Below are positions 16,819-33,209 of a stretch of DNA of 64,000 bases, in pieces. Source of the stretch: Leptogranulimonas caecicola. GTDB lineage: Bacteria > Actinomycetota > Coriobacteriia > Coriobacteriales > Atopobiaceae. How positions within the stretch are numbered: position 1 is the stretch's first letter; each line of letters opens with the position of its first letter. Location: NCBI RefSeq assembly GCF_023168405.1, contig NZ_AP025285.1, forward strand, positions 496,001 through 560,000. Direction: 5' to 3'. The notes under the pieces were generated by a model. The model made no database searches and had not been told where the DNA came from. It saw only the letters and a list, made by a program, of their open reading frames with translations. Position numbers and translations under genes: made by a program.

Positions 16819-18681
16819 CTACTCGCTATCGGTTGCGGGGACCACTTCAGATTCATGAGAAGCGAGACCTTGGGAGACCACATTGCGACGACCGGTTTCA
16901 GTCCACAGGGGAGCCTCGTCGGGCTTGGAGCCAGGCTCGCAGTGAACCAGCTGGCTTAGGCAGTGGCGGGCAACAATGACGCCCAGCACCATCAAAAGCA
17001 CAGCGAAAACAAACTGGAGTCCCTTGGTGGCAAGAGTGGCGAAGCTTGCATCGGCGGCAAGAGCGGTAACACAGCCCCACGCAGAGAGCCCCAAGCTGGT
17101 GAAAGTGCATACCAGCAGGAATGCGACGGGCACATAGAGCATCCAGCCTTTACGGCCAGTGGCCTTACAAAAGACGGCCAGGCAGATCATAGTCATGCCA
17201 CCCAAGAGCTGGTTGGAGGCTCCGAAGAGGGGCCAAATGTTGAGGTATCCGCCAAAGGTGAGCGCCAAACCGAAGGCGAGGGTGAGGAAGGTGGAGAACC
17301 AGACATTGGTCACTACGCGTCCAGCCAGAGAAGTGGGGACAGTTACCTCACCGGTCTCCTTGTCCTCGAAGAAGAATTCCTGGAAAGAGGTACGGGCGAT
17401 ACGGGCCACCGCATCAAGAGAGGTGAGTGCCAATGCAGATACATTCATGGTCATGAAAACGGTAGCTACGGTGTTGTCGAAGCTCATAGCGGTCATACCG
17501 CGAGCAATGCCTGCAGCAAAGATCTGGAAGGGGGTGCTTGCGACACCTGCATTGAGAGCGCCGGTACCGGCAGTGTTCATGTCGCCAAACATGATGCCGG
17601 CGACCACGATGGCCAGAACGCCTACAAAAGACTCGATGACCATAGCGCCAAAGCCAACGGGAAGAGCGTCAGTCTCGTTAGCGAGCTGTTTAGAAGAAGT
17701 GTTAGAAGATACGAGGCTGTGGAAGCCAGAGAGTGCGCCACAGGCTACAGAGACAAAAAGCACGGGGAAGATGTAGTCGCCATTCTCGGCAAGCTTGTCG
17801 AAGGTAGCGGCGTCTACGATCATGGGTGCAGTCATGGTGGCTTGACCGTTGAAGGCGAGCACTGCGATGCCAGCAACTGCACAGAGGATCATGGCCATCA
17901 TCATGATGACAGTGAGGTAGTCGCGGGGCTGCTTAAGGGTTTGGATGGGCATGGCCGCAGCAAAGACCAGATAGACCATGACTACAGCTACCCAGCCCAC
18001 GGTGTTGAGATAGATAGGCATAGCCATGCCAGCGGCGAACATGCCAAGGATAAGAGCGCAACCCAAGGCAAACTGCTTGACGCCAGTGAGGGAGAAGCGA
18101 CGGCACGCCCAACCAAATGCGATGGCTACAAAAGTGAAGAGCACAGAGATGGTGCCTGCGACGCCGCCAGCATAGGAGCGGGTGAAGTCTACAAGGCCAT
18201 CAGGACCATCGACGGTGGCAAAGGTGCCGGCTACCATAGAGGTGAAGGCAGCGATGACGATGATGCAGAAGAGCCAGGAGAACAGAAGGAAGAGGCGGCG
18301 ACCTGTGCGGCCAACGTACTTCTCTAGCAATTGAGCCAGCGATTTGCCGTTGTTCTTCATGGAGGCGTAGAGGGCGCCAAAGTCATGGACTGCGCCCATG
18401 AACACGCCGCCTACCAGCACCCAAAGAAGCACAGGGAGCCATCCAAACATCATGGCCACGATGGTGCCGGTAACGGGCCCTGCGCCGCAGATCGAGCTAA
18501 ATTGATGGGCGAAGGCCGTAAAGCGCGAGGCGGGAGTGTAGGACTGTCCGTCCTCCATGCGGCGTGCGGGGGTGAGAGCGTCGGGATCTACGCCCCAGGT
18601 GTGAGCGAGCCATCGACCATAGAGCAGGTAGCCGGCAGCTAACGCCACCGCTACTAAAACTACGAGCACTAATCCGTTCAT
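16819..18681 (-). CDS. cstA: Carbon starvation protein A, peptide/pyruvate-type transporter
   Basis: CstA proteins take up peptides or pyruvate under starvation. The 620-residue membrane protein has the CstA N-terminal signature SRFTAFAHQFSSICGAGPV, then VHDFGALYASMKNNGKS, and in the second half LVSSNTSSKQL and NIWPLFGASNQLLGG. It has about 16 predicted helices and an acidic C-terminal tail. It starts at the ATG at 18681, after AGAAAGG at a rather long distance. No ybdD-like small partner is next to it. Expression is probably set by the leader-peptide attenuator upstream (18743-18885). Confidence 0.93.
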   Translation of the reverse strand: MNGLVLVVLVAVALAAGYLLYGRWLAHTWGVDPDALTPARRMEDGQSYTPASRFTAFAHQFSSICGAGPVTGTIVAMMFGWLPVLLWVLVGGVFMGAVHDFGALYASMKNNGKSLAQLLEKYVGRTGRRLFLLFSWLFCIIVIAAFTSMVAGTFATVDGPDGLVDFTRSYAGGVAGTISVLFTFVAIAFGWACRRFSLTGVKQFALGCALILGMFAAGMAMPIYLNTVGWVAVVMVYLVFAAAMPIQTLKQPRDYLTVIMMMAMILCAVAGIAVLAFNGQATMTAPMIVDAATFDKLAENGDYIFPVLFVSVACGALSGFHSLVSSNTSSKQLANETDALPVGFGAMVIESFVGVLAIVVAGIMFGDMNTAGTGALNAGVASTPFQIFAAGIARGMTAMSFDNTVATVFMTMNVSALALTSLDAVARIARTSFQEFFFEDKETGEVTVPTSLAGRVVTNVWFSTFLTLAFGLALTFGGYLNIWPLFGASNQLLGGMTMICLAVFCKATGRKGWMLYVPVAFLLVCTFTSLGLSAWGCVTALAADASFATLATKGLQFVFAVLLMVLGVIVARHCLSQLVHCEPGSKPDEAPLWTETGRRNVVSQGLASHESEVVPATDSE

Positions 18682-18742: not shown

Positions 18743-18773
18743 AAAAAAGCCGCCCGGTGATACCCAGCGGCTT
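18743..18773 (-). terminator. Attenuator terminator in the cstA leader
   Basis: On the reverse strand AAGCCGC pairs with GCGGCTT around a 17-base interior that holds GGT/ACC pairs, and TTTTTT follows. It lies between the leader peptide and cstA, so it would stop transcription before the gene. An upstream GCGGCTT copy (18793-18803 region) can pair with its first arm instead. Confidence 0.7.
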
Positions 18774-18837
18774 ATAACATTCGTACTCAATGAAAGCCGC
18801 CCCAGATGAGCCCGGGGCGAGTTTGCTGCACCCCGAG

Positions 18838-18885
18838 CTAGCTAATAATTAGGTTGCTAAGAATGAGGGCGGCAGCTACGAACAT
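18838..18885 (-). CDS. Putative leader peptide for cstA
   Basis: A 15-codon frame, MFVAAALILSNLIIS, with a strong AAGGAG eight bases before its ATG. It has three Leu, three Ile, three Ala and one Val. The tandem Ala codons 4-6 (18868-18876) are complementary to GGCGGC in segment 2 at 18793-18803, which in turn can pair with the first arm of the terminator. That is the arrangement of a translation-coupled attenuator sensing aliphatic aminoacyl-tRNA. The peptide itself need have no function. Confidence 0.6.
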   Translation of the reverse strand: MFVAAALILSNLIIS

Positions 18886-19100
18886 GGGCGTTACTCCTTA
18901 ACCAAGGCTCCTCGCAAATGACCCTTTGTCATAGGCGGGTGTGTGCCTTTGCTTAGGTAGGCATTGTGCGCAGCTTAGGGCGAGGGATAAAGAGGGGAGG
19001 AGTAACGTTAATAAAAAAGAAATGAATAAGAAGCCTTAAAGAAAAGCAGGCCTGCTGATGAAGTGATGTGCAGAATTATTTCAGGGGACTGGTGGTGGGT

Positions 19101-19204: not shown

Positions 19205-19429
19205 ATGTTAGGTGGTTTGGGTCCGGCAGAGCTTATCATCATCCTCGTCATCGTTTTGGTCATCTTCGGGCCCAAGAACCTCCCCAAGCTCGGTGCCTCT
19301 CTGGGCAAGACCGTCAAGAACATTCGCGAGGGCATGGAGAGCGAAGACTCCAAGGACGCCAAAGATCCCAAGAAGATCGAGGCAGAGGATGTCGACGTGG
19401 TGGACGAGGACAAGGACGACCAGGAGTAA
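19205..19429 (+). CDS. tatA: Sec-independent protein translocase TatA
   Basis: Forms the export channel of the twin-arginine pathway. The 74-residue protein has one N-terminal membrane helix (about residues 7-22), the [10 protein letters not shown] hinge, an amphipathic helix and a Lys/Asp/Glu-rich tail. The start follows TAGGAGGTCCCC. It stands alone; tatC is not in the window and must be elsewhere if the pathway is active. Confidence 0.93.
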
Positions 19430-19482
19430 CTGGCTCTTTTGCTTTGTCCACACAGGCCTGAGCGCCCTTTAGTGCATTATCT

Positions 19483-30927: not shown

Positions 30928-31003
30928 GCTGATGTAGCTCTAACGGTAGAGCAGCTGACTTGTAATCAGCCGGTTGCAGGTTCGAATCCTGTCATCAGCT
31001 CCA
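30928..31003 (+). tRNA. tRNA-Thr (TGT)
   Basis: Acceptor GCTGATG (30928-30934) pairs with CATCAGC (30993-30999), then T and encoded CCA. The anticodon loop CTTGTAA reads ACA. A TAGAAT at 30910-30915 is a likely -10. It has its own terminator. Confidence 0.95.
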
Positions 31004-31012
31004 GGCAATTGC

Positions 31013-31049
31013 GTGCCCACAGTACCCTAAATAGGTAGTGTGGGCACTT
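31013..31049 (+). terminator. Terminator after tRNA-Thr(TGT)
   Basis: GTGCCCACA pairs with TGTGGGCAC, with inner TACC/GGTA pairing, followed by TTCGTTT. It separates the first tRNA from the Tyr-Thr-Met-tuf unit. Confidence 0.7.
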
Positions 31050-31092
31050 CGTTTACCTGGGGTTTTATGCCACCTGTGAAGAACTAATGGGA

Positions 31093-31148
31093 GGGATACG
31101 CCCGGCTCAGGGGAATACGTTGACATCTTTCTCCGTAGGTCGTAGTAT
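31093..31148 (+). promoter_or_regulatory. Promoter of tRNA-Tyr/Thr/Met-tuf unit with GGGATACGCCCGG box
   Basis: TTGACA at 31120-31125 and TAGTAT at 31143-31148 are 17 bases apart, a near-consensus sigma-A promoter. The 13-base GGGATACGCCCGG at 31093-31105 starts 27 bases upstream of the -35. The same box and the same -35/-10 hexamers occur ahead of rpsL, so the two units may share a regulator. Confidence 0.75.
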
Positions 31149-31194
31149 TCTTTCCGCGTTGCAGGGCCGCGAGCCTTGCATTGCTTGAAAACTT

Positions 31195-31278
31195 GGGGAT
31201 ATGGCACAGCGGCAACTGCGGCGGACTGTAAATCCGCTCCCTCTGGGTTCCTTGGTTCGAGTCCAAGTATCCCCACCA
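31195..31278 (+). tRNA. tRNA-Tyr (GTA)
   Basis: An 84-base class II tRNA with acceptor GGGGATA pairing TATCCCC, discriminator A and encoded CCA. The anticodon loop CTGTAAA gives GTA, and a long variable arm follows. Confidence 0.95.
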
Positions 31279-31279
31279 T

Positions 31280-31355
31280 GCCCGTGTAGCTCAGTCGGTA
31301 GAGCACTTCGTTGGTAACGAAGAGGTCACCGGTTCGAATCCGGTCGCGGGCTCCA
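31280..31355 (+). tRNA. tRNA-Thr (GGT)
   Basis: Acceptor GCCCGTG pairs with CGCGGGC with one G-T pair, then T and encoded CCA. The anticodon loop TTGGTAA reads ACC/ACT. It begins one base after the tRNA-Tyr CCA, so both come from one precursor. Confidence 0.95.
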
Positions 31356-31365
31356 TTTCAAGCAC

Positions 31366-31442
31366 GGCGGTGTAGCTCAGTTGGTCAGAGCACGCGGTTC
31401 ATACCCGCGGCGTCACTGGTTCGAATCCAGTCACCGCTACCA
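31366..31442 (+). tRNA. tRNA-Met (CAT), elongator type
   Basis: Acceptor GGCGGTG pairs with CACCGCT with a terminal G-T, then A and encoded CCA. The anticodon loop is TTCATAC. It lacks the three G-C pairs and the 1:72 mismatch of initiator tRNA. A lysidine-modified tRNA-Ile2 cannot be fully excluded. It lies 105 bases before tuf. Confidence 0.88.
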
Positions 31443-31547
31443 GCGTTCAAGCGGCACGGGCCTTCTAGGCGCGTGCCGTTAGGCATATAAAGTTAGGCAT
31501 CATTGGCTGCGAAACAGAGAACCCTGTTTCCAGAAGGAGGAACTCAC

Positions 31548-32738
<1,191 letters not shown>

Positions 32739-32759
32739 CTTCTCTCTTTGATTTTTGTG

Positions 32760-32796
32760 AGCCCGGCGCATCTTTTCCAGATGCGTCGGGCTTTTT
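32760..32796 (+). terminator. Intrinsic terminator after tuf
   Basis: AGCCCGgCGCATCT pairs with AGATGCGtCGGGCT around a short loop, followed by TTTTT. Confidence 0.9.
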
Positions 32797-32965
32797 AATG
32801 GCTGCGCCACACGCCCTCTAGAGGAGGGTCAATTGCGGCCAATCCGTGTATCGATGGATTTCGCACTATCTACCATTGACGGACCGTCGCAATGATGGTA
32901 GCGTAATCACTCGCGCCGTGACTCTGCATGCTCATCGCGGCCTGCACCTCTGGAAGGACTTATTC

Positions 32966-33115
32966 ATGCGTACTCTCGTCACCCTCGCCTGCAGCGATTG
33001 CAAGCGTCGCAACTACACCACCTATAAGAACAAGAGCACTCATCCTGAGCGTATGGAGCTCAAGAAGTACTGCCGTTGGTGCGGTCACCATACGGTGCAC
33101 AAAGAGACCCGCTAA
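32966..33115 (+). CDS. rpmG: 50S ribosomal protein L33, zinc type
   Basis: A 49-residue large-subunit protein. It has two CxxC pairs, ACSDCKRR near the N-terminus and YCRWCGHH near the C-terminus, so it is the zinc-binding form. The start ATG follows GGAAGGACTTATTC. It is followed by tRNA-Trp and secE, the common rpmG-(trnW)-secE-nusG order. Confidence 0.95.
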   Translation: MRTLVTLACSDCKRRNYTTYKNKSTHPERMELKKYCRWCGHHTVHKETR

Positions 33116-33133
33116 GATAAGAGGGTCACTCAC

Positions 33134-33209
33134 AGGCCAGTAGCTCCAATGGTAGAGCGGCGGTCTCCAAAACCGTTTGTTGTGGGTTCGAGTCCTACCT
33201 GGCCTGCCA
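33134..33209 (+). tRNA. tRNA-Trp (CCA)
   Basis: Acceptor AGGCCAG (33134-33140) pairs with CTGGCCT (33199-33205), then G and encoded CCA. The anticodon loop CTCCAAA reads TGG. It lies between rpmG and secE, a widespread arrangement. Confidence 0.96.

Follow-up and report, generated by a model that had tools for sequence, protein, structure and literature searches.

A probable isoleucine-reading leader-peptide attenuator upstream of cstA in Leptogranulimonas caecicola and other Coriobacteriales

The attenuators of the trp, leu and ilv type are ribosome-mediated amino-acid attenuators, and they resemble the element described here, which lies ahead of cstA in Leptogranulimonas caecicola. Like them, it has a short leader ORF with regulatory codons, a competing antiterminator and terminator, and a strand inside the ORF that would lock the antiterminator when the leader is untranslated. 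Unlike them, it precedes a transporter gene and not a biosynthetic operon, and its stop codon is the site of a hairpin, the 3' arm of which (strand b) can capture antiterminator strand c when the ribosome is at the stop. In Actinobacteria, the leaders of ilvB and ilvBNC are likewise described, in the accessible parts of the sources, as having branched-chain codons in the leader peptide together with a terminator, and the C. glutamicum leader model includes a terminator, an antiterminator and an anti-antiterminator (PMC1262725; PMC11857589). These leaders differ in preceding other genes in another clade, and the comparison with them is by published description, not by sequence. The genome list of the 2005 survey, in its available text, names no Coriobacteriia, and cstA is unnamed there (PMC1262725).

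Both peptide transport and pyruvate transport have been ascribed to CstA (PMC5847655; PMC7730263, both in their accessible parts). According to the same partial sources, the pyruvate system of E. coli comprises CstA and YbdD (PMC5847655), CRP and CsrA control E. coli cstA, which encodes a transporter of the same family, and Salmonella mutants have been reported to be defective in dipeptide use (PMC7730263). The main text of PMC7730263, as far as available, contains no words beginning with "attenuat" or "leader". The element was not found among the matches listed in the literature on cstA control, Coriobacteriia leaders and branched-chain attenuation, as covered by titles and the starts of abstracts, with subscription journals mostly outside.

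The window, i.e. the whole analysed stretch of 64,000 nucleotides from the L. caecicola contig NZ_AP025285.1, carries the leader and cstA on its minus strand (Table 1). The first-pass annotation had placed here a leader-peptide attenuator with four competing segments, and its coordinates and strand were exact to the base: the ORF, the Shine-Dalgarno sequence and the segments GCTGCCGCC (18876-18868, codons 4-6), GGGGCGGCTTT (18803-18793), AAGCCGCT (18773-18766) and GGGCGGCTTTTTT (18755-18743) are all as described. The three proposed pairings of segments 1:2, 3:4 and 2:3 are also present, as s1:c, d:e and c:d, respectively, although the leader has five helices, not three: the first-pass annotation had missed a:b, a hairpin located at the stop codon, and b:c, which competes with it. 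Within s1, GCCGCCCT (18873-18866) pairs with GGGGCGGC (18803-18796) in c. Strand a (18838-18829) pairs with b (18819-18810), and positions 18819-18812 of b pair alternatively with the 5' part of c (18805-18798). The antiterminator c:d and the terminator d:e with its U run are mutually exclusive. The peptide contains three Ala, three Leu, three Ile and one Val, the Ile codons being codons 8, 13 and 14, all ATT. The cstA product scored only 192.1 bits with the NCBIfam model for the pyruvate/proton symporter CstA, the cut-off of which is 1188. Five plus-strand tRNA genes are found within 2.3 kb at 30928-33206 of the window.

Table 1. Positions of the leader, its pairing strands and cstA in the window
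Feature	Position	Strand	Remarks
Shine-Dalgarno AAGGAG	18894..18899	-	8 bases ahead of the leader ATG
Leader ORF, MFVAAALILSNLIIS and stop	18838..18885	-	15 sense codons from the ATG at 18885, with the TAG ending at 18838; relatives have an Ile-rich ORF in frame at the equivalent place
Strand s1	18866..18876	-	Codons 4-6 and two bases of codon 7; folds, swap test
Strand a	18829..18838	-	5' arm of the hairpin starting at the last base of the stop codon; folds, a:b covariation
Strand b	18810..18819	-	Alternative partners a or c; folds, b:c covariation
Strand c	18789..18805	-	Core GGGGCGGCTTT at 18803-18793; partners b, s1 or d
Strand d	18762..18773	-	5' arm of the terminator; antiterminator partner of c
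Strand e	18743..18755	-	3' arm of the terminator and T run; terminator-helix covariation
cstA, gene presumed controlled	16819..18681	-	620 aa; PF02554, 453.9 bits

We consider it very probable, judging from sequence comparison and folding models, that the element is a ribosome-mediated transcription attenuator which reads the supply of isoleucine through its leader peptide and controls cstA. With no translating ribosome, s1 would pair with c and a with b, so that c is locked, the d:e terminator forms and transcription ends ahead of cstA. When charged Ile-tRNA is plentiful, the ribosome would reach the stop codon and cover a, b would then capture c, and termination would again follow. When charged Ile-tRNA is short, the ribosome would wait just downstream of s1, where the first Ile codons lie, and in that position it would cover s1 and leave a free; a:b would form, and the unlocked c would pair with d, blocking the terminator and allowing cstA to be transcribed. 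The pausing of the ribosome at Ile codons, the function of the terminator and the induction of cstA on isoleucine shortage are what we infer from this arrangement. Most likely the element represents an isoleucine-responsive attenuator family with a known mechanism and new targets.

The leader fold of the window was more stable than all of 200 dinucleotide shuffles (z -4.03). A simple terminator scan of the leader returned one site, the b:c hairpin at 18820-18797, and did not pick up the terminator at 18773-18743; as this is no excess over the shuffle mean of 0.7, the case rests on comparison among relatives. The CstA relatives came from the window's family, where 61 of 140 genomes had a match, and from 59 named loci of Olsenella, Parafannyhessea, Tractidigestivibacter, Collinsella and unnamed MAGs. 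Olsenella sp. KGMB02461 is the closest of them, its CstA being 97 % identical; Olsenella belongs to the Atopobiaceae and Collinsella to the Coriobacteriaceae, both of the order Coriobacteriales. When loci identical in the last 220 bases were merged, 88 distinct regions upstream of CstA-family genes were obtained, and 36 of them were found by reading to contain an Ile/Leu/Val-rich ORF of 11-16 codons. This ORF lies 158-205 bases from cstA, or 278 bases in one copy of Collinsella provencensis, and 32 of the 36 leaders passed a loose four-letter Shine-Dalgarno test. Naive ORF calls in the GC-rich neighbourhoods gave many antisense frames, which were excluded. The C. provencensis genome contains two cstA copies (L091, L043), each with its own diverged leader.

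The peptides diverge among the relatives (MFTHQLNIISVVII, MGVSTLAEVIIS, MRQTSLVIRLIIS, MFLAELAIIAIVI), and the conservation in frame by which the first-pass annotation had proposed to judge the leader was found: the frame is kept despite an otherwise changed peptide. From the 36 leaders 26 were laid out, ten near-identical ones from C. aerofaciens being left out, and 24 were aligned; 20 entered the first swap test and 21 the cstA fold model. The 26 have one layout in common: the stop codon opens a hairpin, a GGGCGG strand is present, and GCCG lies in the 5' arm of the terminator. Three families of the order have the element ahead of cstA, with differing peptides; in the window's family ten genomes do.

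A first covariance model, built from the 24 aligned leaders, matched 24 of 140 genomes of the family at E <= 1, several of these being chance matches, and 90 of 396 genomes of the class at E <= 0.05, short terminator-only matches included. Among 296 genomes sampled across the phylum it matched 11 at E <= 0.01, all within the window's order. Of 395 genomes of the order, 92 were matched at E <= 0.01 by a second model, built from 55 matches; those of G002, G108 and G354 look like chance. As far as both models reach, the element is confined to the order. Weak or partial matches (L140 of G002, L139, G108, G354 and the second matches of G164 and G055) were not used, and other partial matches and antisense terminator-only matches were likewise set aside. 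When the 53 CstA-family loci marked as having no convincing leader were searched with the model, none matched, the window alone being matched of 54 sources; many cstA genes therefore manage without the element.

The pairings were examined in the 55 matches, the alignment of which had been fitted to the a:b and d:e structure. In this alignment 92.0 % of the a:b and d:e cells were paired, compared to 74.9 % when shuffled and at most 52.3 % when slid, changes on both sides occurred in all 18 pairs, and the covariation score was 0.578, compared to 0.241 shuffled and at most 0.158 slid. The competing helices b:c and c:d are outside the modelled structure. For b:c, 94.2 % of cells were paired (24-53 % when slid) and five of six pairs had changed on both sides. 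For c:d the paired fraction was 96.6 % (9-56 % when slid), and double changes were few, found in two of six pairs and equalled in 121 of 500 shuffles.

In a swap test each strand was paired with partners from other genomes, using 51 leaders from which the near-duplicates L136, L138, L189, L191, L193, L205, L217, L219, L222 and L224 had been excluded. The native partner was better for a:b and b:c (p = 0.00005 each), c:d (p = 0.0002) and s1:c (p = 0.00035), with relatedness ignored in these p-values. With the first 20 leaders the values, again ignoring relatedness, were 0.00005 for a:b and b:c and 0.0003 for s1:c, or 0.020 with a narrower c segment, and the c:d signal was absent (p = 0.90). The co-variation of segments that had been suggested as a check is thus seen, with weaker support for c:d. 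Taken with the in-frame leaders, the co-varying pairings support the logic of an amino-acid attenuator as originally suggested.

In the fold model the leaders were folded to the end of d with the ribosome masked codon by codon. Averaged over 21 cstA leaders, the antiterminator probability was 0.07 in the ribosome-free state, rose to 0.64 with the first Ile codon in the A site and was 0.09 with the ribosome at the stop; over all Ile codons it averaged 0.38. The antiterminator switched by more than 0.5 in 11 of the 21, compared to 33 of 840 shuffles in which c and d were preserved; the other ten, including the window (0.33), do not switch to this extent. In a wider set of 50 leaders, which omits L208 because of its misplaced terminator arm, 24 switched (10 of the 20 used before and 14 of the 30 new ones), compared to 36 of 1000 shuffles, and with two alternative footprints 27 and 24 of the 50 did so. 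The 30 new leaders averaged 0.35 with no ribosome, indicating a higher unlocked baseline, 0.80 at the first Ile and 0.26 at the stop; several leaders (L186, L199, L203, L211, L223, L134) had a high antiterminator probability in every state. Anatomy, conservation and covariation are directly seen, and for about half of the leaders the fold model gives a three-state switch.

For the window the antiterminator probability was 0.01 with no ribosome, 0.99 with Ile-8 in the A site and 0.66 at the stop codon. The small size of its switch is due to the stop-codon state and improves with another definition of d: when the terminator arm was defined by folding, the probability with Ile-8 was 1.0 whichever of 16 footprint settings was used, and that at the stop codon was 0.15-0.28 for 14 settings and 0.86-0.88 for the other two. 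The minimum-energy structure of the full-length window leader contains the terminator even when a ribosome occupies Ile-8, so read-through would need c:d to form before e is made. In other attenuators, too, the antiterminator forms ahead of the synthesis of the 3' arm of the terminator. In the model the window leader reads through with the ribosome stalled anywhere from codon 2 to codon 11, or to codon 12 with some footprints, and the window alone therefore cannot separate Ile from Leu.

The amino acid was approached through the 51 leaders, in which Ile accounts for 204 of the 661 codons after the start, compared to 5.1 % in 23 long ORFs of the window; leaders were selected partly by content (at least two Ile, or at least four Ile/Leu/Val in the last nine residues) and the covariance models themselves contain Ile codons, so this enrichment is not independent of selection. 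All 41 model matches examined gave an Ile-bearing in-frame leader ORF; these exclude L204, which has no leader, and L196, L197, L198, L212 and L214, which were already represented. ATT is the preferred Ile codon of the leaders (133 of 204), whereas 73 % of the Ile codons of the long window ORFs are ATC. The start codon is TTG in two of the 51 leaders, and in L202 and L203 the ORF continues into strand a, its usual stop having been replaced. In the leaders of relatives the Leu codon CTA is often found as CAG CTA just ahead of Ile codons.

The first-pass annotation had named aliphatic residues as the signal; isoleucine is among these, and the leaders point to it, more than to the aliphatics in general, as the amino acid sensed. 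Only Ile, of the 20 amino acids, is present at least twice in all 51 leaders, Leu being present at least twice in 20 and Val in nine. The same attenuator could nevertheless be multivalent, as in the ilvGMEDA-type leaders: Leu and Val would count besides Ile, and rare CTA Leu codons would add a further pause. Leu is present in 47 of the 51 leaders, the window peptide has as many Leu as Ile residues, in family f2 the leaders of cstA are rich in Leu (MLIGLLDILVLVIS), and CTA makes up 41 of 81 Leu codons in the leaders, compared to 3.9 % in the 23 long window ORFs. On the other hand, some leaders of MHS transporters have neither Leu nor Val (MFQATMHEHIEITSIS), and CTA in the cstA leaders is often within CAGCTA adjoining s1, so its conservation may be partly structural. 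We regard multivalency as a serious possibility, though one short of an even chance; it overlaps with the isoleucine reading, since both read Ile, and the two are not exclusive.

That the Ile-rich C-terminus itself stalls the ribosome in response to a small molecule, as a nascent-peptide arrest, is improbable. Hydrophobic arrest peptides of similar look exist, and Ile is found in the last three residues of 49 of the 51 leaders; however, the remaining residues vary, most of the switching leaders read through at the first Ile cluster and terminate at the last codons or the stop in the fold model, and the targets are transporters and enzymes of the 2-oxo-acid type, not resistance genes. More improbable still is a plain terminator with a chance ORF and no translation-dependent switching. 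The result of the simple terminator scan and the half of the leaders that fail to switch would agree with this, but leaders kept in frame, covarying s1:c and b:c, and switch counts far above those of shuffles argue against it. Moreover, the gene upstream of the leader, which we take to be GreA-like, is divergent (plus strand, from 19595), and no long minus-strand ORF lies between it and the leader, the only one being an 81-aa GTG frame (19208-19453), so that no minus-strand gene needs a terminator here. A known Rfam cis-regulatory element was also considered and rejected, as the window and the loci of 14 relatives match tRNAs alone at the gathering threshold; the best sub-threshold match over the leader was trpB (RF04312), with 22 bits against 59. 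Collinsella-1 (RF01700), a name found in a table of PMC2864571 in its accessible part, was likewise set aside, the C. aerofaciens cstA locus L055 having no Rfam match at threshold.

The element is not found at cstA alone. It precedes, with an Ile-rich leader, an MHS-type MFS transporter gene at 13 loci in two families (L134, L135, L136, L137, L186, L191-L195, L238, L240, L241), a 2-oxopent-4-enoate-hydratase-like gene at three loci (L148, L149, L200), with a PanE-like gene after the hydratase-like one at L200, and a PanE/ApbA-like gene at one locus (L199). One representative of each kind of target was typed and the names hold at the family level only: the MHS representative scored 401.1 bits with the TIGR00883 metabolite/H+ symporter model, below the cut-off of 443.45; the hydratase-like one scored 54-60 bits with hydratase models, far under their cut-offs, and had no Pfam family; the PanE-like one was above the cut-offs of PF02558, PF08546 and TIGR00745. 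The leader of L138 (G121) is also of the MHS type, and genome G208 carries three elements. Genome G087 (L179) has two on one strand, about 4.3 kb apart (5171 and 9504), before a hydratase-like gene and before cstA, and the frame of the hydratase-like gene appears to be interrupted about 90 codons in. Six regions around ilvC, scanned for Ile/Leu/Val-rich leaders with a Shine-Dalgarno sequence, yielded no convincing candidate: a single GTG frame was seen, which was weak and lacked a T run.

The host genome (99.34 % complete) has no match to the KARI (IlvC), IlvD or YbdD families, and in the absence of KARI and IlvD the organism probably cannot make branched-chain amino acids. A KARI match was found in 43 of 63 element-bearing genomes and none in the other 20, compared to 14 with and three without among 17 CstA-bearing genomes that lack the element; these 80 genomes were hand-chosen, not random, and a few KARI matches are partial. 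With KARI in 43 of the 63, the switch is not tied to auxotrophy, and the presence of IlvC does not explain the distribution of the element.

Control by isoleucine fits a role of CstA in supply, and an isoleucine-reading leader at cstA is independent evidence on how the cell uses CstA. Tentatively, and as an idea we hold to be rather unlikely than otherwise, the targets may form an isoleucine-starvation regulon of the Coriobacteriales, in which CstA, the MHS-type carrier, the hydratase-like enzyme and the PanE-like 2-oxo-acid reductase would serve the uptake of peptides that yield isoleucine, or of branched 2-oxo or 2-hydroxy acids for conversion to isoleucine. If this were true, CstA would here be a transporter for isoleucine supply rather than a carbon-starvation pyruvate carrier. 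Such a regulon would give common gut Actinobacteria, such as Collinsella and Olsenella, a defined amino-acid regulon with further targets.
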